From Brachyspira sp. SAP_772 (GTDB taxonomy: Bacteria > Spirochaetota > Brachyspiria > Brachyspirales > Brachyspiraceae), in assembly GCF_009755885.1 (NCBI RefSeq), contig NZ_VYIX01000003.1, forward strand, positions 369,204 to 433,203: a stretch of DNA of 64,000 bases, read 5' to 3'. The position numbers and the translations under genes are program-made. Below the pieces are notes generated by a model that saw only the letters and a list, made by a program, of their open reading frames with translations, did no database searches and had not been told where the DNA came from. Positions 14,189 through 28,120 of the stretch are shown piece after piece (within the stretch, counting starts at the first letter, position 1; every line of letters begins with the position of its first letter).

Positions 14189-15127
14189 CTAACCTTTTAT
14201 GCATGAAACTAAGTGATTATTTCCAATATCTCTTAATTTTACATTATCAGACAAACAACCATCTTCAGCATAAGGACATCTACTATAAAATCTGCATCCT
14301 TTTTTAGGATTTATAGGAGAAGTAACTTCACCTCTAAGCAATATTCTATCTTTTTTCTTATTTAAATCAATAGTTGGAATAGCTGAAAGTAATGCTTTAG
14401 TGTATGGGTGTTTAGGATTTTCAAACAAAGTTTTTTTATCACAGCTTTCTATTATCTCGCCTAAATACATAACCGATATATTGTTTGATATATGTTTTAT
14501 AACAGATAAATCATGAGATATAAACATATAAGTTAATTTTAATTCTTTTTGCAAGTCCATAAGCAAATTAATTATTTGTGCCTGTATTGAAACATCTAAT
14601 GCACTAACAGGTTCATCGCAAACTATAAACTTTGGATTAATAGATAAAGTTCTTGCTATAACTATTCTCTGTCTTCTTCCCCCATCAAACTCATGCGGAT
14701 ACATGTTATAGCTTCTCTTACTAAGACCTACTATATCCATAATCTCTTCTACTCTCGCTTTTCTATCTCTCGCATTATCATATATCTTAAAAAAACTTAA
14801 AGGCTCAGAAATTATCTCTGCTACTGTATATCTAGGATTTAAAGATGAATAAGGGTCTTGAAATATTATCTGCATGAATCTTCTCATCTTTCTCATATCA
14901 TCATTATTTAATTTTGTTATATCCATGCCGTTATAATATATATTACCGCTGTCAGCCTCATGCAATCTCAAAATCACCCTTCCCAAAGTGCTTTTTCCGC
15001 AGCCAGACTCTCCCACAACTCCAAGCGTTTCCCCCTCTTTAATACTTAAATTAACATTATCAACAGCATGCAATTTACCCTTTGGCGTATCAAAATATTT
15101 ATATAGATTCTTGGTTTCAATAAACAT
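14189..15127 (-). CDS. oppF: Oligopeptide ABC transporter ATP-binding protein OppF
   Basis: OppF is one of the two ATPases that power peptide import. The 312-residue protein has Walker A GESGCGKST near residue 39, the signature FDGGRRQR, Walker B FIVCDEPVSALD and the switch histidine in ISHDLS. The C-terminal oligo/dipeptide domain carries cysteines in KGCRFYSRCPYAEDGC, typical of OppD/F and linked to an iron-sulfur site in some members. It is 15 bases after oppD and ends the transporter part of the operon. Confidence 0.93.
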   Translation of the reverse strand: MFIETKNLYKYFDTPKGKLHAVDNVNLSIKEGETLGVVGESGCGKSTLGRVILRLHEADSGNIYYNGMDITKLNNDDMRKMRRFMQIIFQDPYSSLNPRYTVAEIISEPLSFFKIYDNARDRKARVEEIMDIVGLSKRSYNMYPHEFDGGRRQRIVIARTLSINPKFIVCDEPVSALDVSIQAQIINLLMDLQKELKLTYMFISHDLSVIKHISNNISVMYLGEIIESCDKKTLFENPKHPYTKALLSAIPTIDLNKKKDRILLRGEVTSPINPKKGCRFYSRCPYAEDGCLSDNVKLRDIGNNHLVSCIKG

Positions 15128-15142
15128 AAATAATAACTTCCC

Positions 15143-16108
15143 TTAAAAATTAAAATGACATTTATATTGATGATTATCACCCATTATATTAGGCTTCTTC
15201 TCTATACATATATCTTTTTTATATTTGCACCTAGGATTAAAATAACATCCGCTTGGCAAATCAGCAGGATTAACCATATCTCCTTCTATAGGTATAAGCC
15301 TCTCATTATCAACATCAAGTCTTGGTATAGAATTAAATAATCCTTTAGTATATGGGTGCTTTGTATTTAAATAAACTTCTTTAACAGAACCGCTTTCAAC
15401 AATTTCTCCCGCATACATTATAAAAACTCTATCACAACTCTCTGCCACAACACCTAAATCATGCGTAATAAGTATAAGCGACATATCAAATTTTTCTTTA
15501 AGATTATTTATTATATTTAATACCTGTGCCTGTATGGTTACATCTAAAGCAGTAGTAGGCTCATCAGCTATTAGTATTTTAGGTTTCAAAAGTAAAGACA
15601 TGGCAATAACAACCCTCTGCTTCATACCGCCGGAAAATTGATGAGGATATTCTTTTAATCTATCCCTTTGAACACCAACCAATTCAAGAAGCTCTATAAT
15701 AGTATCAAGCTTCTCACCCCTACTCATATTGCTTTTATGACTATCCAAAACTTCCATTAACTGCTTTTCAACTGTCATAGCAGGGTTTAATGCAGTCATA
15801 GGGTCTTGAAATATCATAGAGATTCCATTTCCTCTTATTTGCTGATACTCTTTTGCATTGCAATGAATTATATTTTTATCTTCATAAATTATCTCTCCGT
15901 CCATAATAATTCCCGGAGGATATGGAATTAAACCCATTACAGATAAAGCCATAGTGGTTTTTCCAGCACCAGTCTCTCCAACTATTCCTATACTCTCCCC
16001 TTTTTTAAGAGATAAATTTATGCCATTGACCGCCTTTACTGTTTCATCTTCTTTAATGTAATGTACATGCAAATTTTTTATTTCTAATATATCTTTCATA
16101 ATAGGCAA
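15143..16108 (-). CDS. oppD: Oligopeptide ABC transporter ATP-binding protein OppD
   Basis: This is the second ATPase of the peptide importer. The 321-residue protein has Walker A GETGAGKTT, signature FSGGMKQR, Walker B ILIADEPTTALD and ITHDLGVV. The C-terminal region has LPSGCYFNPRCKYKKDIC, the cysteine pattern of the oligopeptide subfamily. The frame's first residues are MPIMKD; a start at the second Met is equally possible. It is 22 bases after oppC. Confidence 0.93.
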   Translation of the reverse strand: MPIMKDILEIKNLHVHYIKEDETVKAVNGINLSLKKGESIGIVGETGAGKTTMALSVMGLIPYPPGIIMDGEIIYEDKNIIHCNAKEYQQIRGNGISMIFQDPMTALNPAMTVEKQLMEVLDSHKSNMSRGEKLDTIIELLELVGVQRDRLKEYPHQFSGGMKQRVVIAMSLLLKPKILIADEPTTALDVTIQAQVLNIINNLKEKFDMSLILITHDLGVVAESCDRVFIMYAGEIVESGSVKEVYLNTKHPYTKGLFNSIPRLDVDNERLIPIEGDMVNPADLPSGCYFNPRCKYKKDICIEKKPNIMGDNHQYKCHFNF

Positions 16109-16130: not shown

Positions 16131-17633
16131 TTATTTCATTTTAGGGTCTAATGCATCTCTAAGTCCGTCACCCAAAAAGTTAAAAGCAAGAACCATAAAT
16201 ATAATAGCTAAACCCGGAAATATAGCTATATAAGGATTAGTTTCCAAATAAACACTTCCTATCTTCAATATATTTCCCCATTCTGGTATATGAGGCTCTA
16301 TTCCTAAACCCAAAAAGCTTAAACCGCTTGTAGATAACACAGCAGAACCTATATCCAAAGACATTCTAACAATTACAGGAGAAAGTACATTAGGCACTAT
16401 ATGCTTATATATAATAACAAAATTATTAGCCCCCAATGCCTTAGCCGCTTCTATAAACTCCATATTAGATACTGATATTACACTAGCCCTCACAGTTCTA
16501 GCATAACTAGGTATAGCACTAATACTAAGAGCTATTATCAATACAAAAACATTAGCACCAAATACAGCAATAATGGCTATAGCAAGAAGTATGCTAGGCA
16601 CAGAATATAATATATCTAATATTCTCATTATAATGTTATCAGCTTTTCCCTTATAATATCCAGACAAAGCTCCTAAAACTCCTCCAACTACTATAGGTAT
16701 GAGTGTGGATATCACCCCTATTATAAGAGATATTCTAGCACCAAATACTATTCTGCTAAAAACATCTCTTCCATAATTATCAGTACCAAATGGATATATT
16801 AAAGAAGGCGTTTGAAGCAAAGCTGTATAATTGTTTTCTATAGCATCAGCATAATTAAAAGTAAATGTACTCATTATTGATAGAGCAAATAAAAATATTA
16901 CAAAAAACATTCCTATTACAGCCATTTCATTTCTAAAAACTCTATATAATATATCAACAAACTCTATGGATATATCATCATCTTTATGAATGATTTTTAA
17001 TATCATAGTAATACCTGCTAAAAATGAAAATATATTTCCAATGAGTATGGTTAAAATACATATTGCAGAAATAAAATAAAAAAGCTTCTTGTTTTGTTTT
17101 ATTTCTTTTATTGAAATTAAATACATTGATAATATAAAAAATAATGAAACTAATATTAAAATTATTATACCAAAATAAAAATTTTCAGGCAAAACTTCTT
17201 TAAATAAATTAATGCTTGATACAAATATAATAGCTATATTCACCAAAAAAGCCTCGAATATAAGTATATACTCAAGCTTTTTCTTCTTTGTTATCAAATG
17301 AAAACCAGAAGAAGCTGCAAAAATATTTGCAGACACTAAAAAAGCTATAAGAATAAAACCTAATTTCCTTGTAGAAGAAGATATATCATTATTAGTTTTT
17401 ACATCTTTTTTTAATTTGATTAATACCAAGTATGAAATTAAAGCTGAAATAAAATATAATAATGCCGCTGAAATAGTGTAAACATTAAAACTCTTTTTAG
17501 TAAAATCTACAGAAAATAATAGTATAACAACTCCTACAAATAAAGAAGCTCCTATTGCAAAATTAAGAGAACTATATTCTCTAAATTTAATAAACTTACT
17601 CTCTTCTAATTGTTTTCTATAATCCATATTCAC
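16131..17633 (-). CDS. oppC: Oligopeptide ABC transporter permease OppC with extra N-terminal membrane region
   Basis: The C-terminal 290 or so residues are a normal OppC permease: the GTDNYGRDVFSRIVFGARIS start, the EAA loop FIEAAKALGANNFVIIYKH that docks on OppD/F, and the GLSFLGLGIEPHIPEWG ending. The whole protein is 500 residues, while OppC is usually near 300. The added N-terminal part, up to about residue 215, contains about five or six predicted membrane segments of unknown role and no motif I recognise. It is 16 bases after oppB. No frameshift or second start is needed to explain the length. Confidence 0.9.
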   Translation of the reverse strand: MNMDYRKQLEESKFIKFREYSSLNFAIGASLFVGVVILLFSVDFTKKSFNVYTISAALLYFISALISYLVLIKLKKDVKTNNDISSSTRKLGFILIAFLVSANIFAASSGFHLITKKKKLEYILIFEAFLVNIAIIFVSSINLFKEVLPENFYFGIIILILVSLFFILSMYLISIKEIKQNKKLFYFISAICILTILIGNIFSFLAGITMILKIIHKDDDISIEFVDILYRVFRNEMAVIGMFFVIFLFALSIMSTFTFNYADAIENNYTALLQTPSLIYPFGTDNYGRDVFSRIVFGARISLIIGVISTLIPIVVGGVLGALSGYYKGKADNIIMRILDILYSVPSILLAIAIIAVFGANVFVLIIALSISAIPSYARTVRASVISVSNMEFIEAAKALGANNFVIIYKHIVPNVLSPVIVRMSLDIGSAVLSTSGLSFLGLGIEPHIPEWGNILKIGSVYLETNPYIAIFPGLAIIFMVLAFNFLGDGLRDALDPKMK

Positions 17634-17649
17634 TTCCTATTTTTATCTG

Positions 17650-19047
17650 TTAATAATTTTTCATATTAGATTTTATTCTAGGGTCTAGAAAAGCATATAA
17701 TATATCAACTGCCAAATTAACAACACTCACAACCACAGATACATAAACCACCCCCGCTAAAACCGCAGGTATATCTGGAATAAATTGCTTATCAACTATA
17801 TAGCTTCCTATACCGCTTATGTTAAACACCTTCTCTGTAACAGCAGCCCCCCCTAACACAGCACCTAACTGCATACCAGCAGCAGTTATTATTGGTATTA
17901 AAGCATTTTTTAAAATATGCCTAAATATAACTACATTCTCATTTAAGCCTTTGCTTCTAGCTGTAAGTACAAAATCTGCATTTTTTATCTCAAGCATAGA
18001 AGCCCTAGTCATTCTTGCTATACTAGCAGAAAAACCTGTACCCAATACTATAACAGGCATTATATATGATTTTAAATCTCCTACAGAAAAAGTAGCTGGA
18101 AGTAAATTTAAATTAATAGAGAAATTCAATATAAGTATTAACCCTATCCAAAAATTTGGTATAGATAATCCTATTAAAGCAAAAAGCATAAAAATATAAT
18201 CAAACAATGAATACTGCTTTATAGAAGAAATTATACCAGCAGGTATTGCTATAATTATTGCAAGCAAAAGAGACAAAAATGATATTGACAAAGTTACAGG
18301 AAATTTTCTAGCTATAGCTGAAAATATATCCTCATTACCCACATAAGATTTTCCTAAGTTAAAAGTCATAATATTTTTAAAAGCATTAAATAATTGTTCT
18401 ATATAAGGCTTATCAAGACCATAAGATTTATTGAAAGCTTCTATCTGTTCTTTTGTGGCATCCTGACCCAATATATTTAAAGCACTATCCATAGGCGAAA
18501 TATAAAGTATAGTAAATACTAAGAAAATTACCCCAAACATTACAAATATCATCATCATAAGTCTTTCAAATATATACTTCATATACCAATGCGAATATAT
18601 ATATATTAAAATATACATAGGAAAAGAAAATATTATAGAATATACAAAAAATATTTTATTCTCAAGCATACTGCTTAATACAGCAGAATTGGTAAAGCTA
18701 TCTTTAAACTTTTTATATTTATTTTTATTTCTTTGTTTTTTTAATTGTTCTATATATTTTTTTACCCTTTCTTTTTTCTCTTCTTCGCTTATTTTTTTAC
18801 CTAATATTTCTATCTCTTTTTCTATATGCAAATAATATTCTTTTTCTTTAATCTCTATTTCATCATCTGCATAATCATCAATAGCCTTATAAGAATTAGA
18901 TCTTTTGTATTTGCTGTAGATAAAAAACTTTCTTATCCACAAAGCAATATAAGTAAATATTCCAAGTATTATTAATGCAGCTTTATAAAGAAATACTTTT
19001 TGCATTTTTTCAAAATTGCTGCTGATAGAAAAAATAATATTATTCAT
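17650..19047 (-). CDS. oppB: Oligopeptide ABC transporter permease OppB with N-terminal extension
   Basis: Canonical OppB begins around residue 155 here (YMKYIFERLMMMIFVMFGV) and continues through the periplasmic helix motif GQDATKEQIEAFNKSYGLD and the EAA loop SKGLNENVVIFRHILKNALIP. About 150 extra residues precede it: a membrane segment near residues 20-40, a highly charged Glu/Lys stretch that may form a coiled coil (residues 60-115), and another membrane segment. Total length is 465 against about 310 usually. The extension parallels that of OppC and is probably lineage-specific. It follows oppA after 99 bases. Confidence 0.9.
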   Translation of the reverse strand: MNNIIFSISSNFEKMQKVFLYKAALIILGIFTYIALWIRKFFIYSKYKRSNSYKAIDDYADDEIEIKEKEYYLHIEKEIEILGKKISEEEKKERVKKYIEQLKKQRNKNKYKKFKDSFTNSAVLSSMLENKIFFVYSIIFSFPMYILIYIYSHWYMKYIFERLMMMIFVMFGVIFLVFTILYISPMDSALNILGQDATKEQIEAFNKSYGLDKPYIEQLFNAFKNIMTFNLGKSYVGNEDIFSAIARKFPVTLSISFLSLLLAIIIAIPAGIISSIKQYSLFDYIFMLFALIGLSIPNFWIGLILILNFSINLNLLPATFSVGDLKSYIMPVIVLGTGFSASIARMTRASMLEIKNADFVLTARSKGLNENVVIFRHILKNALIPIITAAGMQLGAVLGGAAVTEKVFNISGIGSYIVDKQFIPDIPAVLAGVVYVSVVVSVVNLAVDILYAFLDPRIKSNMKNY

Positions 19048-19096: not shown

Positions 19097-19134
19097 AATA
19101 GTTTTGTAAATATATATATACCTACAAAACTATT
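19097..19134 (-). promoter_or_regulatory. Stem-loop between oppA and oppB
   Basis: A perfect 12-base inverted repeat (AATAGTTTTGTA with TACAAAACTATT) encloses a 14-base AT loop in the 99-base gap. On the minus strand it is not followed by a solid T run. A partial terminator or 3-prime-end-protecting hairpin would let the binding protein be made in excess of the membrane subunits, as is common for binding-protein operons. This role is inferred. Confidence 0.55.
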
Positions 19135-19146
19135 TTTTATTAAGGA

Positions 19147-20931
19147 TTATTTAGAAGCCACATTACTTTCTTCATAAGCTTTCAAATATTCTTTAGCTTT
19201 ATCTTTATCTGCTGTTAAAACATTACCAGTATCAACTAATGGTGTAAGAGTAGTATAAGCCTTATAAGCATAACCATCATTAATAGCTATAAATGCATTT
19301 TGGTCCATAGAATATAAAATAGCCTTTCTTACATTAACATCTTTAGTAACATGTCCGTCTGACATATTAACAAAAGCAAATATTAAAGCATTACTTGGTA
19401 CTGTTTGAAGAACCAAATTGCTGTCACTTTCTATTACTTTAAGTTTATCAGCTACTATATCATATAATATATAAAGGTCTCCGCTTCTTAAAGAAGATAC
19501 AGCAGCATCTAAATCTTTTATGAATTTTATATTTATTGTTTTTATTTTAGGGAATTTATCAGTATCTGCCATAAATCCCGGATTTCTTTCTAAAACTATC
19601 TCATAATCATTTTTATAAACAGCAATATACTGTCCGCTAGTGTATAAAGTATTATTATAGCTATTTCCCTCTGTTATTGTTGATTCATCACCATAAGAAA
19701 TATCTTTTTGAGGGTCATAATTAGCAACATTATAAGTATTTACTTTTTTAATTTGTTTTTCACTTACTATACCAGCAGATTGATGTGCTAAATAATTAAG
19801 CACTTGAGGAAATGGTGTTACTGTTGTAACTTTTACTACTTGATATACTCCATTTTTATTATCAGCCTGAGCAGAAGAAGAAGTAAGGGAAGTTATAGGA
19901 GCAGGTAGGTTTTTAGAAAGTTCTGTATAAACATCACTTGCAGCTGTTTTAGCATTTTTAAGTTCATTTATATCAGTTACTATAGAAATTTTATCCATAC
20001 TGCTGTGAAGACTGTATGTTCTATGATTAGGAACACTATTTCTATCTTTAGCTCTGTTTAGTGAAAATACTACATCGCTAGCACCAACTCTCTCCCCGCT
20101 ATTAACTGCTTTTCTATCTTCTACTTTAGCAAAATATATATCATCTCTCAATATAAAATAATAATCTTTATTTCCATTTGCTATAGCATAATTGTATGAT
20201 AGAGAATTCTCTGTAGTTATTTGATCATTAGTAGTTAAAGTTACTATTCTCACATACATTTGATTATTAATAAAATTAATAGAACCATCATTTCCTTTTA
20301 TTGGGTCTAAAGAAGTTAATGAAGATAATGACTGGCTTATATATAAAGGCTCTGTTTCATTTTTTGCTTTATCTACAAATGATATTTCTCCTGCATTAAT
20401 AGAAGCAGCTTTATATATCTTCACTGTGTTTTCATCTAATATAGTTTTGTTGAAAGCTTGAGTTTTTACTCTATTGTATAGCGGTATAATATATGCATTT
20501 TCATCTATAATAATCTTTTCTATTTCAGAATATGTAGCTTTAGAATCTTCAAAAGACTCTGTTGCTGCTTTTTCTATGAGTTCATCTAATTGTACATTTG
20601 ATATTTTAGAAAAATTATAATCGCCATCAATTACAAATAATGACCTTACAGCATAATCTGGATTTCCTGTTACAGTATTCCAACTAGTGATTGCTATATC
20701 ATAATTATTAGCTTCCAACTGACCTATAAAACTTGCATAATCTGGAAGCATACTAATACTAGGATTAAATCCGCTTTTTGAAAGTATATCTCTCATTACA
20801 TTTAAAGATTTTTCATCAAATGATTGAGCAATAATCTTAATGTCTACTTTGTTTTCAATGGTTTCTGAAGATTTTCCACATGAAATTGTTAATAATAATA
20901 AAAATAATAAAACTAAAAATTGTTTATGCAT
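19147..20931 (-). CDS. oppA: Oligopeptide-binding lipoprotein OppA, apparently circularly permuted
   Basis: This is a 594-residue family-5 solute-binding protein with a lipoprotein signal (LTISC, Cys18) and an AAGGGG ribosome-binding site. The order of its parts is unusual. Residues 30-165 look like the end of a normal protein: YDIAITSWNTVTGNPDYAV, then QLDELIEKA and ENAYIIPLYNRV. Residues 200-594 look like the beginning: LDPIKGNDGS near 208, YFILRDDIYFA near 258, GASDVVFSLNRA near 283, IVLERNPGFM near 445 and DVNVRKAILYSMDQNAFI near 531, stopping after DKDKAKEYLKAYEESN, where the C-terminal lobe would normally start. Both parts together make one complete domain set. It heads the opp operon and should bind peptides outside the inner membrane. 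Confidence 0.88.
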   Translation of the reverse strand: MHKQFLVLLFLLLLTISCGKSSETIENKVDIKIIAQSFDEKSLNVMRDILSKSGFNPSISMLPDYASFIGQLEANNYDIAITSWNTVTGNPDYAVRSLFVIDGDYNFSKISNVQLDELIEKAATESFEDSKATYSEIEKIIIDENAYIIPLYNRVKTQAFNKTILDENTVKIYKAASINAGEISFVDKAKNETEPLYISQSLSSLTSLDPIKGNDGSINFINNQMYVRIVTLTTNDQITTENSLSYNYAIANGNKDYYFILRDDIYFAKVEDRKAVNSGERVGASDVVFSLNRAKDRNSVPNHRTYSLHSSMDKISIVTDINELKNAKTAASDVYTELSKNLPAPITSLTSSSAQADNKNGVYQVVKVTTVTPFPQVLNYLAHQSAGIVSEKQIKKVNTYNVANYDPQKDISYGDESTITEGNSYNNTLYTSGQYIAVYKNDYEIVLERNPGFMADTDKFPKIKTINIKFIKDLDAAVSSLRSGDLYILYDIVADKLKVIESDSNLVLQTVPSNALIFAFVNMSDGHVTKDVNVRKAILYSMDQNAFIAINDGYAYKAYTTLTPLVDTGNVLTADKDKAKEYLKAYEESNVASK

Positions 20932-21215: not shown

Positions 21216-21611
21216 TTATTTCAATTCATTAAGCAAAAAATCTTCTAAATTATTAGATACTATTTTATTATGACCTGATGGAGTCCACTCTATCACTTGT
21301 CCCTTAGTATTCACCAATACCAAAAGTCCATCAACTCCAACATTTTGTAAAACTAAACAATCTTTTGGAAAACTATCATTTAATTCTCTTTCTTCTAAAG
21401 TTGCCTTTAATATGTTTCTATATCCTTTAACTCCAAGTCCAAAAAACTCTTTATCTTTATAGCTAAATAAACATATATCTTTTAAATAAAGACACATAGA
21501 CTTATCTAACTTTAAATTAAGTTTATCTTCTAATTCTTTAATATTACTATCTGTTACATTTCTATCTTTATAAATATCTAATTCAATAAGTTTTTGTTTT
21601 AATCTATTCAT
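21216..21611 (-). CDS. SMI1/KNR4 (SUKH) family protein, probable immunity protein
   Basis: The 131-residue acidic protein fits the SUKH superfamily: an N-terminal helix with IKELEDKLNLKLDKSMCLYL, a central FGLGVKGYRN turn, LVLQNVGVDGLLVLVNTKG strands and a final helix EDFLLNEL. SUKH proteins are the commonest immunity proteins in bacterial polymorphic toxin systems and often pair with HNH-type nucleases. It is 38 bases downstream of the LHH nuclease gene, the usual toxin-then-immunity order, and is the last gene before a terminator. Binding to the toxin is inferred from this arrangement, not shown. Confidence 0.78.
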   Translation of the reverse strand: MNRLKQKLIELDIYKDRNVTDSNIKELEDKLNLKLDKSMCLYLKDICLFSYKDKEFFGLGVKGYRNILKATLEERELNDSFPKDCLVLQNVGVDGLLVLVNTKGQVIEWTPSGHNKIVSNNLEDFLLNELK

Positions 21612-21649
21612 AATATAACTCCAATTAAATTTTGTATTTAATAATTTAT

Positions 21650-22201
21650 TTATTCTTCTATCTGTTTAGCTCTAGCCTGCCAATATTCCCTACGTTCTTC
21701 ATTAAATTTCTCTCTATCAATTTCAGATTCTTTTTTTAAATCATGAAGTGTTGTATGATTATTTTTTCCTCTGTGTTCTTCTTTAGTTAACTCTGCTAAA
21801 GGAGAATCAGGCTTTTGACCTATATGATGAAGCTCTATAGGGTTGCCGTCTTTATCAAGTGGGGCTTTACCATCTTTCATTAATTCTAAATTTGTTTTTC
21901 CTGTATCTTCATCTATTTGATTATAGTCTATATCAGTTCTTTCAAGAGTTGGCTTTCCATTAACCTTTCCCTCTTTTAGAGGAGCATTTTTGTATACATC
22001 TAACTCTTCTTTAGTTCTAATACTATCATTAATCTCTTTTGAAAAAGGACTATTTTCTTCTATTTTTTTAGCATCTTCTGGAGACTTTTCCATATTACTA
22101 GTTTGACTTACATCAGATTTTATATCTTTAAAATCAGGAATAATATCTTTCTCTTTATTTTTTATATTTTCAGATTCTAAATTTTCGTATGTTTTTTCCA
22201 T
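21650..22201 (-). CDS. LHH-type HNH/ENDO VII nuclease toxin
   Basis: The C-terminal 90 residues match the LHH group of HNH/endonuclease VII toxins: ERTDIDYNQIDEDTGKTNLE, GNPIELHHIGQ with the paired histidines, SPLAELTKEEHRG and NNHTTLHD. The N-terminal 80 or so residues are hydrophilic and disordered-looking, without a signal peptide or any delivery domain I recognise (LXG, PAAR, RHS, filamentous haemagglutinin). I start it at the ATG giving MEKTYENLE, which has AAGGAG nine bases upstream; a frame 23 codons longer overlaps the previous gene and lacks such a site. The product is 183 residues. It starts four bases after the HerA-like gene, so the two are coupled. Confidence 0.82.
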   Translation of the reverse strand: MEKTYENLESENIKNKEKDIIPDFKDIKSDVSQTSNMEKSPEDAKKIEENSPFSKEINDSIRTKEELDVYKNAPLKEGKVNGKPTLERTDIDYNQIDEDTGKTNLELMKDGKAPLDKDGNPIELHHIGQKPDSPLAELTKEEHRGKNNHTTLHDLKKESEIDREKFNEERREYWQARAKQIEE

Positions 22202-22205
22202 ACAA

Positions 22206-25200
22206 TTATACTCCTTTATTATAAAAATTTTCAACCCAATCACTATATTTATCAATTTTGCAAATTCCAATATTACTAGAATGCATTAACATTAAATTCA
22301 TAGCCTCTAAAATATATTTTCTATCAAGCCCATTATCTATATTTTCAATATCTCTAATAATATTATTATGCCATATTTGAAAATCAGTATATTCCTGATT
22401 AGAAATCAATAAATCACTGCCATTTAATATATCATATACAGCTAATGAAAGTTTTGCATTATCAATTCTTTCACTTTTAAATATTTCCCTAATATTAATC
22501 TTTGCTGACTCAGCAATATTAATATCATCTAAAGAAGAAATAATATTAGAATCAATATTTTCATTCAATGATTTCTGTACTAAACATTTTAATATATTAC
22601 CTTTGCTTGATTTATTTTCTATAAAGTTTTTATCTTCTATCTTATATGATTTTCCTTCTTCAATAGAATCATAATATTCAACTTTACATAAAACGCTATC
22701 AATCCAATTATTTTGATATACTGCTGCAACACCTGTATGAAGTTTTGCTAATTCTTCTATTTTATCATCATTAAGTCCAGCTGCTTTTCCAACCATTTCT
22801 CTGTCTGAATATTCAGGAAGTCTTAAAATAATCTTTGTATTAGTATTTCTTATAGCCGACATATCCACTGCTGAAGGGGATTGATCTGCTATAATAAATC
22901 CTTCTCCATAAGTACGCATTTCAGCAATAGAGTTTGAAAGCATCTCAACTGATTTTCCTACCAAATTAGAGCTCTCACTAACTTGTTCAGTAGATGTTCT
23001 TTTTAATATGTTATGAGCTTCTTCTAATATAGTAACATGTTTTAAATTCTGATTCATTGCTTGAGATGATGTTCTGTACTCTGAAAGCTTCATTATAAGT
23101 ATACCCATTATCATTGATTTAGTTTCTAATGAACCAATTCTGCTTAAATCAACTATAACATTTTCATCAAACAATATTTTCTCATCTATTTCTTTAGATG
23201 AAAATATTCTTCCTATTATACCATTGGTAAGAGATTTAACTCTTGTAACCAATGAACCTGTATAATTGCTTTTTACTTCCTGAGAATAATCAGAAGATTC
23301 TATAACTTTTTTTAAATTATTCAAAACATCTATAAAATTAGGAAATATATTATCTCCGTATTTATTTACAGACATATCCAAATCCCATCCAGTATTAATA
23401 TAAGATTTTTCAATAGCCTCTTTTAAAACTGCAGGCATAGCAGCATACATAGGCCAGCAAACATTGAATATATCTATAAGTCTATCAATATGTTCAAGTA
23501 CATGTATACTTTTATTAAAGCTAAAAGGATTAATTCTTAAAAGTTCAGTATGGTAAGGATTAGTACCAAACACATGAACATCTTTTCTGTGACCAAATAC
23601 ATTTTTATATTCACCCTTAGCAGGTTCTATAACCATAAATTTTATATTTTTTATTATAAACTTTGATATTATATTATAAATTGTATTTGATTTTCCTGAA
23701 CCAGTAGAACCTGTTATAAAAGTATGTGAAGCCAAACTTTTTAAATTAAGATTAACTTCTCTATTTTCTTCTTTTCCAAAATGAAATATTTTTCCTATAT
23801 TAATACTATTTCTATCATCTATATTATCATAAGAAACTATTTCTCTAGAAAAAGGAGTATATTTTATAACGGGAACTCCCGCAACACTTTTTTGAGGAAG
23901 ACCAGCCTGTATAGCTAATTCCATACTGCTTATTGTAACAGCAGGTGAAAAATTAGGCATTGTGTCATCTATATGAAACATAGGATGATACATTTTTGAT
24001 ATATAATTTAATACTTCTATTCTGTTTCTATTTTCATCATTCCATAAATTAATAGCCCCTATTTCTACAGAAGAACCTTCCCCTCTTATCAAAGACTGAT
24101 ACATACTTGAAACAACCCTATTTGTTTGTACATTATCTGTTATAAAATATGCAGCACTATTCCATACTCCTACATCTGCACATTCATTTATACGCTCCAA
24201 TTGACTATCTATTTTATCTAAAATATTAGTAACCATTTTGTTTTCAGAAGTAACTTGCAAAGATTTATCATTACCTGTTGTTTTTGAAGTGCCTTCGGAA
24301 GTGGAAGAATCTTTTGTATCTGTATCACTGCGACCAATGGTATGCGATTTAGCAGTACCATAACTCCTAGCAAGCCCCATATTAATAGAAGAAAAAACTG
24401 TATTAGCCACTGTTGTTGCTACTGATGTACCTACAGTATTTATCAATGTCTTTCCAACTATTGTACCAATTGTTTGAGCCATTCCAATTGTTTTGGCTAT
24501 GCCACTAGTAGTAGCCCATCCTTTTGAAGCACTAATACTTCCTCCCAATCCTACATTTGCCACTTTAGCATTTACTCCTACACTGCCTCCTACACTTGCT
24601 CCTACTGAAGTAGAATCTGTTTTAGCATATGAATTTGTATTGCTTACACTTTCAGTATTTGATATACTTTCACTTGTGCTTTCTCCTATAGACTGGCTAT
24701 TAAATTGGGAATTAGTAACTGAGTTGGTTGTACTATTTCCAAATGTTTTTCCTACAGAGAAAGTTGTTGTTTTTGATTTTGTTTCTGTGTCTGATATACT
24801 TTTTGATATTGAATGGGAAATACCTTCTGTAAGAGTTTTTGTAACAGCTTCGCTTTCATTTGTAGAATAGCTTAAATGGGTTGTTCTAAAAGGAGATAAT
24901 TGACTGTAAATACTCTCATATCCGCTTTTAATAGCTGATATCTCATTTTGCATTATAGGGTCTGATATTATAACAATAGTATATTTTTCCCCTCTCATAG
25001 CATCTATTAATTTTTCTATACCCTGAGTAAAAGAATTATTATCATCTTTTATATCAATCTTTTTTACCCCTGCTATAGAAGAACATGATGAAATGATATT
25101 ACAATCTCTTGATATGTTATTTAATGTATGTTTAATTTTATCATTATCTACATTAGAAAGTTCTGTGCCTGAAAATATTCCTGTAATAGAATTTTTTAAT

Positions 25201-25658
25201 ACTTCCTTAGAGCTATTTAAAATACTATTTGCAGATGATGTGCTATTAATATCATCTATATTTTTTATGCCTATATATAAGTTTATTTCATTTTCATTAC
25301 TTTCAATAATAGTTATAACTGATGAATTAGTATTATAAATAGCCTGATACAATGAAGAAAGTTTTATTTGATTATTTTCATTATTCTCAAAAACCAATCT
25401 ATTAATCTTATAAAATCTTATATAATCAGATACATCCTTATTCTTAAGCTCATCAGTTAATGGAACTATATCCAAATTAGAAATAGTAGGCAAATATTTT
25501 TTCATAACAGCAATATCTGCCTTTATTAGAGAATTTATAAGTTCACTATTATCTCTAAGAAAATCTTCTTGTATCTTTAATTTAGGTGAATCTTTATTAA
25601 CCTCAAGATACTGAAGATTTGTATTTACATCTTTTTTTTTACCATTTTCTTCTAACAT
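22206..25658 (-). CDS. HerA/FtsK-like ATPase with a Ser/Gly-rich central region
   Basis: The 1150-residue protein ends in a HerA/DUF87-type motor: Walker A GSTGSGKSN at about 650-658, Walker B VTILEEAH at 875-882, IIADQSPS at 922-929 and LRLPEYSDRE near 946, a probable arginine-finger area. The N-terminal 250 residues are unassigned. Residues 260-465 are extraordinary: a Ser/Thr/Asn-rich run followed by a Gly/Ala/Val-rich stretch (about 350-440) with hydrophobic repeats such as SVGASVGGSVGV and IGMAQTIGTIVGK. That stretch could insert in membrane or form a beta-rich tube. HerA-type motors pump DNA or protein through rings. The gene sits between a dynamin-like GTPase (8-base gap) and a nuclease toxin (4-base gap), suggesting it handles toxin or target DNA. 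A plus-strand frame across it is a shadow. Confidence 0.8.
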   Translation of the reverse strand: MLEENGKKKDVNTNLQYLEVNKDSPKLKIQEDFLRDNSELINSLIKADIAVMKKYLPTISNLDIVPLTDELKNKDVSDYIRFYKINRLVFENNENNQIKLSSLYQAIYNTNSSVITIIESNENEINLYIGIKNIDDINSTSSANSILNSSKEVLKNSITGIFSGTELSNVDNDKIKHTLNNISRDCNIISSCSSIAGVKKIDIKDDNNSFTQGIEKLIDAMRGEKYTIVIISDPIMQNEISAIKSGYESIYSQLSPFRTTHLSYSTNESEAVTKTLTEGISHSISKSISDTETKSKTTTFSVGKTFGNSTTNSVTNSQFNSQSIGESTSESISNTESVSNTNSYAKTDSTSVGASVGGSVGVNAKVANVGLGGSISASKGWATTSGIAKTIGMAQTIGTIVGKTLINTVGTSVATTVANTVFSSINMGLARSYGTAKSHTIGRSDTDTKDSSTSEGTSKTTGNDKSLQVTSENKMVTNILDKIDSQLERINECADVGVWNSAAYFITDNVQTNRVVSSMYQSLIRGEGSSVEIGAINLWNDENRNRIEVLNYISKMYHPMFHIDDTMPNFSPAVTISSMELAIQAGLPQKSVAGVPVIKYTPFSREIVSYDNIDDRNSINIGKIFHFGKEENREVNLNLKSLASHTFITGSTGSGKSNTIYNIISKFIIKNIKFMVIEPAKGEYKNVFGHRKDVHVFGTNPYHTELLRINPFSFNKSIHVLEHIDRLIDIFNVCWPMYAAMPAVLKEAIEKSYINTGWDLDMSVNKYGDNIFPNFIDVLNNLKKVIESSDYSQEVKSNYTGSLVTRVKSLTNGIIGRIFSSKEIDEKILFDENVIVDLSRIGSLETKSMIMGILIMKLSEYRTSSQAMNQNLKHVTILEEAHNILKRTSTEQVSESSNLVGKSVEMLSNSIAEMRTYGEGFIIADQSPSAVDMSAIRNTNTKIILRLPEYSDREMVGKAAGLNDDKIEELAKLHTGVAAVYQNNWIDSVLCKVEYYDSIEEGKSYKIEDKNFIENKSSKGNILKCLVQKSLNENIDSNIISSLDDINIAESAKINIREIFKSERIDNAKLSLAVYDILNGSDLLISNQEYTDFQIWHNNIIRDIENIDNGLDRKYILEAMNLMLMHSSNIGICKIDKYSDWVENFYNKGV

Positions 25659-25666
25659 AATAAATC

Positions 25667-28120
25667 CTATAAAGTGATAATATCTTCTAATTTTGATTTA
25701 ATATCTTGTATCCATGCCAATTTGTTTTTTTCTTTTTCTATAAATTGTTCTAATTCTTCTTTAGTGATATTTTTATATTTTAAATCTTCTTTTTTTGATT
25801 TTAGAACATATTCTAGTTTCTCTATTTCTGATAAAATATAACTCTTTAAATTATCAATATTTTCAATAGAATTCTCTGTTATATTATCAATCTCCTCTCT
25901 CATATCATTTATTAATTTATTAAAAACATTCTCATTATACTCTTTTATATTAAACTCATCCCATAATCTTATATCCCAAGATTGTATATCCCACCATTTA
26001 TCTTTAAACTCAGGTTTTAGTTCTATTTTTCTATTCAATATATAATTATTTAATGTATTATTAATATCATTAATAGAGCATCTGTCAAATAGAGTTTCAG
26101 ATTCAATTGACAGCTCTTTAGATATAAATTTATACATGGATAATTCATTAAGCGTATTATAAATACTTATTTTATATTCATTAATTATATTTTTTAAAAT
26201 AAGATTTATATTTTCATTTAAATAAGAATCTAATTCTACAGTTAATTGACTTAATAGTTCTTTTATCATATTATTGATATTAATTGTATATTCTTTTTGT
26301 TCTGGTATACTAATATTGTAGTTTTCATAATCATTGCCTTCTATTAATATAACATTCTCATTTCCATTTAAAGCACTTCTAGGAGTATTAGAGACTTTGC
26401 TATATAAGCTATGAATTACATCTTTAAGATCATCAATTCCCTTTTGCACATTATCTTTAACACTATTAATTCCTTTTTGAACATTATATCCAAACGATTT
26501 TTTTATAGTATCTTCAAATACTATATTCATTTCTTTGCGTAACCTTTCAGAAAAATTATTAAAAATATCTTCAAAATCTGTTTTAATTTTATCATACATA
26601 TCTAATTTATTAATTTTATCACGGAAATATGGAATAGCAGATTCACAGAACTTTATTTGTTCTTCCATTTTCATAATTGTTTCTGAAATATAGCTGTTTT
26701 CATCTTCTTTTTTTACAAGTATTTCATTTATTTTATCTATAAAATTATTTTCATCTATATATAATAAAAATGATTTTATAGCCTTTTCCATTTTCTCAGC
26801 CATAGCATATTTTTCTAAATAATCTTTTATACCAAATTCAAGAGCAGGAATGCCTGAATATATTAAAATCTTTTCCAAATCATCTTTAGGATTATTTAAT
26901 ATATTTTCAATTTTTAATTTATTATTTTTTGAAATAGAAGAATATTGATTGAGATTAAACTCCTCATATTCTTCAAATAAATATCTTGAAGAATCAAAAA
27001 AAGATTTATTTTGCCTATTTCTTAAATCTTCTTTTTTATTTATTAATTTAATAATCATAGCCATTCTTGCAGATACAAAATATATATTTGGATTTACTAT
27101 TTCAAAATCTTTTAAATATTGAATCACTTCTCTATGAAGCTGTTCAATAGAATCTCCGCTATCTATATCAAGTTCATCTACTTTATTAACAACAAAAATA
27201 AATCTGTCTTTTCCCTGTCTTCCACCCCTTTTCATAGCTTTTGAAATATCTTCTAATAATAATCTATTGTCTGTACTTTGATGAACTCCATCTATAACAT
27301 ATAAAATTAAAGGATCAGATTTATTAATAACTTTTCTAGTTTTTTCTTTATGTGTTTTATCACTGAAATTATTAGGGCCGGGGGTATCAAGTAAAACGAG
27401 CTCTAAAGTATCAGTATCTACAAATGGTATATCCATCTCTAAATCTATATAATGAACTTTTTCATCATCATTAAATTTTCTAATTATATCTATATCAGCA
27501 TTATCTGACCTGTATGATTCATCATCAATTATATTTTCATTCTCATCTCTGCATAATACTGAAATATTATCCGAATTATCAACATCTTTAATTCTAATTA
27601 TAGTAGAAGTACAAGCCTGTTTTTTCGAAGGCATAAGTTCTTTACCCAATAAAGAATTTATCAAAGTAGATTTTCCGCTGCTTACTGTAGCAACAACAGC
27701 TATTTCAAATTCTTTATTAATATCAGAATAAAATCTAGCAAATATATTTTCATCTTTCAATTCATCTATAGGAGATTCTTCTTTTATAGAATTGAATAAT
27801 TTTACCAATTCATGTAATCTTGTATCTATTGATTTTACTTCATGCAATGAAGATTTAATATTAGTCTTATGTTTTTTATTAAATTCATCTATTTCAAATT
27901 GAATATCATCATAATCAAAAGAAGTACCCTTAAAATTCAAAACAAAATCTTCATTTATAACTTCATATAATTCAGGAATAAATTTATGAATCCAAGACTG
28001 GAGTCTTTTACTATCTCTGCTGTAACTATATATTTTAGATTCAGGATCAAATTTTATTCCATTTTCTTCTAATTTAAATTCCAAAGTAAAAGGATTATAC
28101 TCAAAATAAACTTCTTTCAT
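25667..28120 (-). CDS. Bacterial dynamin-like GTPase
   Basis: The 817-residue protein has a dynamin-type G domain: P-loop TVSSGKST near residues 145-152, a threonine-rich G2 area (KQACTSTIIR), G3 DTPGPN near 245-250 and G4 NKVD near 312-315. After this come long charged helices, with likely coiled coils around 450-560 and at the C-terminus (residues 745-815), as in stalk domains of bacterial dynamins. About 100 residues of unknown fold precede the G domain. Such proteins remodel or tether membranes. It is the first gene of the four-gene module and is read toward the HerA-like gene. The upstream gap holds the V-ATPase operon terminator. Confidence 0.85.
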   Translation of the reverse strand: MKEVYFEYNPFTLEFKLEENGIKFDPESKIYSYSRDSKRLQSWIHKFIPELYEVINEDFVLNFKGTSFDYDDIQFEIDEFNKKHKTNIKSSLHEVKSIDTRLHELVKLFNSIKEESPIDELKDENIFARFYSDINKEFEIAVVATVSSGKSTLINSLLGKELMPSKKQACTSTIIRIKDVDNSDNISVLCRDENENIIDDESYRSDNADIDIIRKFNDDEKVHYIDLEMDIPFVDTDTLELVLLDTPGPNNFSDKTHKEKTRKVINKSDPLILYVIDGVHQSTDNRLLLEDISKAMKRGGRQGKDRFIFVVNKVDELDIDSGDSIEQLHREVIQYLKDFEIVNPNIYFVSARMAMIIKLINKKEDLRNRQNKSFFDSSRYLFEEYEEFNLNQYSSISKNNKLKIENILNNPKDDLEKILIYSGIPALEFGIKDYLEKYAMAEKMEKAIKSFLLYIDENNFIDKINEILVKKEDENSYISETIMKMEEQIKFCESAIPYFRDKINKLDMYDKIKTDFEDIFNNFSERLRKEMNIVFEDTIKKSFGYNVQKGINSVKDNVQKGIDDLKDVIHSLYSKVSNTPRSALNGNENVILIEGNDYENYNISIPEQKEYTININNMIKELLSQLTVELDSYLNENINLILKNIINEYKISIYNTLNELSMYKFISKELSIESETLFDRCSINDINNTLNNYILNRKIELKPEFKDKWWDIQSWDIRLWDEFNIKEYNENVFNKLINDMREEIDNITENSIENIDNLKSYILSEIEKLEYVLKSKKEDLKYKNITKEELEQFIEKEKNKLAWIQDIKSKLEDIITL

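Follow-up and report, generated by a model that had tools for sequence, protein, structure and literature searches.

In Staphylococcus aureus, transposon mutants in each of the gisABCD genes show impaired growth with GSH or GSSG as the sole sulfur source (PMC10355420), and at low GSH the growth of this bacterium needs Gis (PMC12510641). The gisA gene is divergent from gisBCD, and GisB and GisC each have nine predicted transmembrane (TM) segments (PMC10355420). For Tp0684 (MglB-2), a glucose-binding lipoprotein of Treponema pallidum, a circular permutation was shown by crystallography, and its authors propose a link with membrane anchoring (PMC4990184). The word stem "permut" is absent from both of the Gis papers cited here, and our literature search, which covered open-licence papers, found no report of a permuted family-5 substrate-binding protein (SBP) or a permuted GisD.

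Here, we analysed a window of 64,000 nucleotides (the whole stretch of DNA under study) from Brachyspira sp. SAP_772, in which an OppA-type binding protein had been described, from the letters of the DNA, as circularly permuted.

Order of the Segments in the 594-aa Protein

The gene occupies positions 19147..20931 of the minus strand. It starts with ATG, preceded by AAGGGG, and its open reading frame (ORF) encodes a permuted family-5 substrate-binding lipoprotein (GisD-like) of 594 aa, as judged from the ORF, the profile alignments and the orthologues. SBP_bac_5 was the sole Pfam family found in the protein and matched it in two stretches (105.8 bits; cut-off 32.4), the best of which aligned residues 250–585 with positions 12–275 of the 368 in the profile. 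A signal peptide with a lipobox (LLTISC, Cys18) was read at 20878..20931 (minus strand), preceding the old C-terminal part. Cys18-Gly19 is invariant among four aligned permuted homologues, and the protein is predicted to be lipidated at Cys18.

In the native order, hhalign aligned the protein with the normal template in two blocks. Block 1 joined residues 206–585 to template positions 38–368; this segment (19177..20316, minus strand) carries the motifs LDP, SDVVFSLNRA, VRKAILYSMDQ and DKDKAKEYL. Block 2 joined residues 26–164 to positions 375–513 and corresponds to 20440..20856 of the minus strand, with the motifs YDIAITSW, PDYA, LDELIEKA and AYIIPLYNR. The two blocks are reciprocal, only template positions 369–374 (~6 positions) being absent between them, and both halves together are complete, as the sequence-only reading had said; every motif that it cited is present. 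A phmmer comparison with Brachyspira paralogues gave a similar division, with residues about 52–158 matching normal positions 402–508 and residues about 204–556 matching 38–325. The alignments place the join of the old C-terminus to the old N-terminus at residues ~172–195 (20347..20418, minus strand), which hold no signal-peptide remnant. The new C-terminus lies just past the DKDKAKEYL (DxxKAKexL) helix, and the new N-terminus picks up at the next strand (VDIKIIAQ). The halves are swapped as first described, but the protein runs on beyond the start of the last lobe, where it was said to stop: its C-terminus lies inside that lobe, past the DxxKAKexL helix.

For a quantitative comparison of the orders, a hidden Markov model (HMM) of 528 positions was built from 60 normal SBPs, and the mature protein was scored after rotation in steps of three residues, the rotated sequences serving as search queries only. 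The best single domain of the window protein scored 74 bits in the native order and up to 149 bits when rotated (model positions 25–500 of 528). Four full-length permuted homologues behaved in the same way with this HMM (67–83 bits native, 128–145 bits rotated). The normal controls (n = 6, leave-one-out) did the opposite: the native order was best in all six, with the peak at cut 0 for five of them and a single residue off for the other. With hhalign, the two blocks of the native order became a single block after rotation (E 4.3e-42, 436 columns). The swapped order thus aligns end to end and the native order does not, which upholds the proposed permutation. The outcomes that would have spoken against it did not appear, as the N-terminus matched no other domain and swapping improved the alignment.

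In a comparison with the PDB, the swapped order merges the pieces and so gives longer single alignments with 5isu, 3m8u and 1uqw; no solved structure covering the permuted order was found in this search. An AlphaFold2 model of the window protein, made from a ten-row alignment with normal-SBP fragments, was of low confidence (pLDDT 47, pTM 0.42). Meanwhile, the 14 other SBP_bac_5 genes of the same genome match nearly the whole profile and are in the normal order. The window protein matches the SBP_bac_5 profile and lacks the normal linear order of the family; it is a permuted derivative of SBP_bac_5 and not an ordinary member. We regard it as near certain that this lipoprotein is a complete family-5 (SBP_bac_5, OppA/DppA-type) binding protein with circularly permuted segments.

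The same arrangement could have arisen if pieces of two different SBP genes had been fused, a possibility also raised for Tp0684 by its authors (PMC4990184). Here, the two halves rank distant normal relatives differently, in a sampling biased by locus retrieval. However, the blocks are exactly reciprocal, the most evenly high-scoring normal SBPs match both halves well (50 + 58 bits for L050; 43 + 43 bits for L057), and the alignment with an SBP of genome G114 is continuous through the restored junction (90.6 bits). We therefore consider such a fusion improbable and the permutation of one gene the preferred explanation.

Distribution and Conservation of the Permuted Gene

Two further Brachyspira species have orthologues with the same ends (94% and 79% identity); these are 2 of the 25 other species in which the oppA copies were checked, as had been suggested. 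Counting the window genome, the permuted gene is present in 3 of 26. A Treponema-like genome (G044) has an orthologue with the same ends and 47–48% identity, in one of eight species of that genus, and no further orthologue was detected among 245 sampled genomes of its family. Outside the spirochaetes, the protein WP_243551643.1 of Metabacillus dongyingensis, encoded on a complete circular plasmid, is 51% identical over residues 28–589 and has the same breakpoints. An S. aureus fragment, the first part of an SBP, crosses the permuted junction with 33% identity to the window protein and 45% to that of Metabacillus. The viral contigs searched held no permuted relatives and only one further SBP. 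A scan of genome contigs returned other SBP-matching loci from which the known orthologues were absent, and it therefore says little about the spread of the gene. These results support the view that the permuted SBP belongs to a wider family that extends to Bacillota and corresponds to the Gis system of S. aureus, which the sequence-only reading had not foreseen.

The S. aureus fragment comes from NZ_CP077929.1. This "plasmid" record is a linear contig in which the gis-like region is inverted-duplicated and the SBP gene is interrupted there; it is probably a chimeric assembly.

The genome of the window consists of 401 contigs, and an assembly error or a pseudogene was considered as the source of the unusual order. 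This was rejected as having next to no probability, because the order recurs in independent assemblies (those of three other genomes and of a complete circular plasmid) and because dN/dS is about 0.1; the ORF, the signal peptide and the operon are also intact. Among the Brachyspira copies, dN/dS was 0.10–0.12, showing that the permuted gene is under purifying selection.

The patchy distribution suggests horizontal transfer of the gene between Bacillota and spirochaetes. The origin first proposed, a duplication with later loss of the outer halves, is plausible in view of the tandem normal SBP genes that occur in spirochaetes; no intermediate of this route was seen.

The Importer Operon and Its Extended Permeases

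The SBP gene is the first of an operon that also encodes adjacent OppB/OppC permeases and OppD/OppF ATPases, all on the minus strand. The OppB/GisB-type permease (465 aa, 17650..19047) has its Pfam BPD_transp_1 domain at residues 267–459 and, by comparison with homologues, an N-terminal extension of ~155 aa (18583..19047) with two predicted TM segments. In the OppC/GisC-type permease (500 aa, 16131..17633), BPD_transp_1 covers residues 317–500, and comparison and Pfam delimit an N-terminal extension of ~225 aa (16959..17633) with about six predicted TM segments. The OppD-type (15143..16108) and OppF-type (14189..15127) ATPases were both recognised by Pfam ABC_tran and oligo_HPY. An inverted repeat, TAGTTTTGTA / TACAAAACTA, was read in the SBP–oppB intergenic region (19099..19132, without assigned strand). 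It could attenuate transcription into the permeases; the terminator scan gave it no score, and the promoter and terminator scans of the window were at chance level.

The permeases are N-terminally extended at every permuted-SBP locus examined (Brachyspira, Treponema, Metabacillus and S. aureus, where the C subunit is truncated in the NZ_CP077929.1 record). By hydropathy, the extended permeases have 7–10 TM segments, with nine in the S. aureus GisB. The cores of the window permeases share 52–66% (OppB) and 47–67% (OppC) identity with the Treponema, Metabacillus and S. aureus homologues. Against other OppB-type matches in Brachyspira, the identity of the OppB core is about 26–34%, and against the closest ordinary OppB paralogues of the Treponema-like genome it is 38–43%. 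The closest ordinary systems of that genome have permeases of 309/288 aa and 305/293 aa without the extension and a normal SBP, and the extension is likewise absent from the OppB proteins adjoining normal SBPs at loci L069 and L070.

The order of the genes varies among these loci. The Treponema-like locus (L065:5386-12362) has the SBP gene at the end of its operon and the two ATPases in one fused protein (686 aa), whereas the Brachyspira operon begins with the SBP gene and encodes the two ATPases separately. In the S. aureus locus (L076), the ATPase gene is divergent from a permease–permease–SBP series. This layout, together with the nine TM segments in GisB, fits the published gisABCD. As the record gives no gene name for the SBP, we infer from the operon layout that these genes are gisABC(D) and that the SBP fragment is GisD.

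Elsewhere in the window, positions 21216-22192 encode a protein with an LHH-type HNH nuclease domain (Pfam LHH, 103 bits), followed by a SMI1/KNR4 (SUKH) protein. Together they resemble a polymorphic toxin–immunity pair in which the toxin is a nuclease. Upstream of these genes, at 22206-28120, a HerA/FtsK-like ATPase (1150 aa) adjoins a dynamin-like GTPase (817 aa).

Relation to Gis and the Probable Ligand

The Brachyspira operon resembles S. aureus GisABCD in its parts, in the permease cores (47–52% identity), in the extension of the permeases and in the permuted junction of the SBP fragment. It differs from it in that the S. aureus locus has a divergent gisA, one fused ATPase and a ggt gene, whereas the Brachyspira operon has separate OppD and OppF downstream and no adjacent ggt; one ggt gene lies elsewhere in the Brachyspira genome. 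Orthology with GisABCD is the best reading of these comparisons, and the 594-aa protein is very likely a functional binding protein, permuted in order, that serves a Gis-type importer.

By this orthology, glutathione appears to be the probable ligand, though with less assurance than the assignment of the protein itself. A permuted and functional protein may instead bind another small peptide, an opine or a nickel chelate, which we hold to be a possible but less favoured alternative. The best partial SBP match in NCBIfam was Opp5A/NikA (59 bits; cut-off 600), with GsiB third. In addition, ggt was found neither in the window operon nor in the Treponema-like genome, the window protein is only 33% identical to the S. 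aureus SBP fragment, and ligand specificity may shift within a family. However, the permease cores are nearer to S. aureus GisB/GisC than to the other Opp/Nik permeases found, and the unusual extensions are common to these permeases and those of S. aureus. Our preferred candidate therefore remains glutathione.

Discussion

We propose that one circular permutation occurred in a distant ancestor, a family-5 (Opp/Dpp/Gis) SBP. A short linker (residues ~172–195) would connect the old C- and N-termini, and the new termini would lie in a C-terminal-lobe loop, the one that connects the DxxKAKexL helix to the next strand. The permuted protein very probably adopts the ordinary two-lobed cleft. With domain boundaries that we take to be those of DppA and OppA, the new termini fall in the second lobe, so that the lipid anchor would hold the permuted SBP not by the usual lobe but by the opposite one. 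The ligand would be bound in the usual cleft and passed to the extended OppB/OppC permeases of the adjacent importer. The cargo would most likely be glutathione/GSSG or a related gamma-glutamyl peptide.

The window protein has all segments in common with E. coli OppA, DppA and GsiB and with other family-5 proteins, and the profile similarity is significant; in contrast to them, its order is permuted and its termini have moved into the C-terminal lobe. With Tp0684 it shares the natural permutation of a lipid-anchored binding protein of an ABC importer, with relatives in treponemes and Gram-positives. However, Tp0684 belongs to a different family of SBPs (sugar-binding, type I/cluster B) and is cut at a different point, and the two are independent events. 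The window protein showed no similarity to the Tp0684-type sugar-binding family and matched SBP_bac_5 alone.

The SBP_bac_5 screen of the same genome also yielded an 862-aa OppA-like lipoprotein, encoded outside the window (L109:3866-6454; G000:C2:1006865-1009453), whose segment order is swapped relative to 7fi3 (E 4e-49). Its residues 41–317, 327–392, 400–445 and 521–740 match 7fi3 residues 327–601, 656–721, 3–47 and 97–305, respectively. Its summed PDB score was not raised by rotation (168.7 versus 170.9 bits); it is the order in which the segments match that makes the case for permutation here. Of 26 Brachyspira species, 25 have the protein, as do some other spirochaetes; no transporter permease genes adjoin it at L109, making it an orphan. 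Both proteins are family-5-like and swapped, but they differ in breakpoint and subfamily.

To our knowledge, large and well-studied transporter families rarely show a natural circular permutation, and a family-5 permutation, seemingly including the S. aureus glutathione importer, appears to be unreported. Domain searches detect such permuted proteins only in part, and the true topology alters how GisD is modelled or compared with GsiB. Tentatively, permuted SBPs with extended permeases may form a distinct class of family-5 importers, with the tether on the opposite lobe and extra helices that co-evolved with it; taken with the 862-aa protein and Tp0684, lipid-anchored SBPs of spirochaetes and Gram-positives may have been permuted repeatedly, perhaps as a moved anchor was selected. 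The permuted SBP offers a natural test of the constraints that anchor position and permease docking place on binding proteins. It represents a major transport protein that was re-cut by evolution and is, by prediction, apparently still working.
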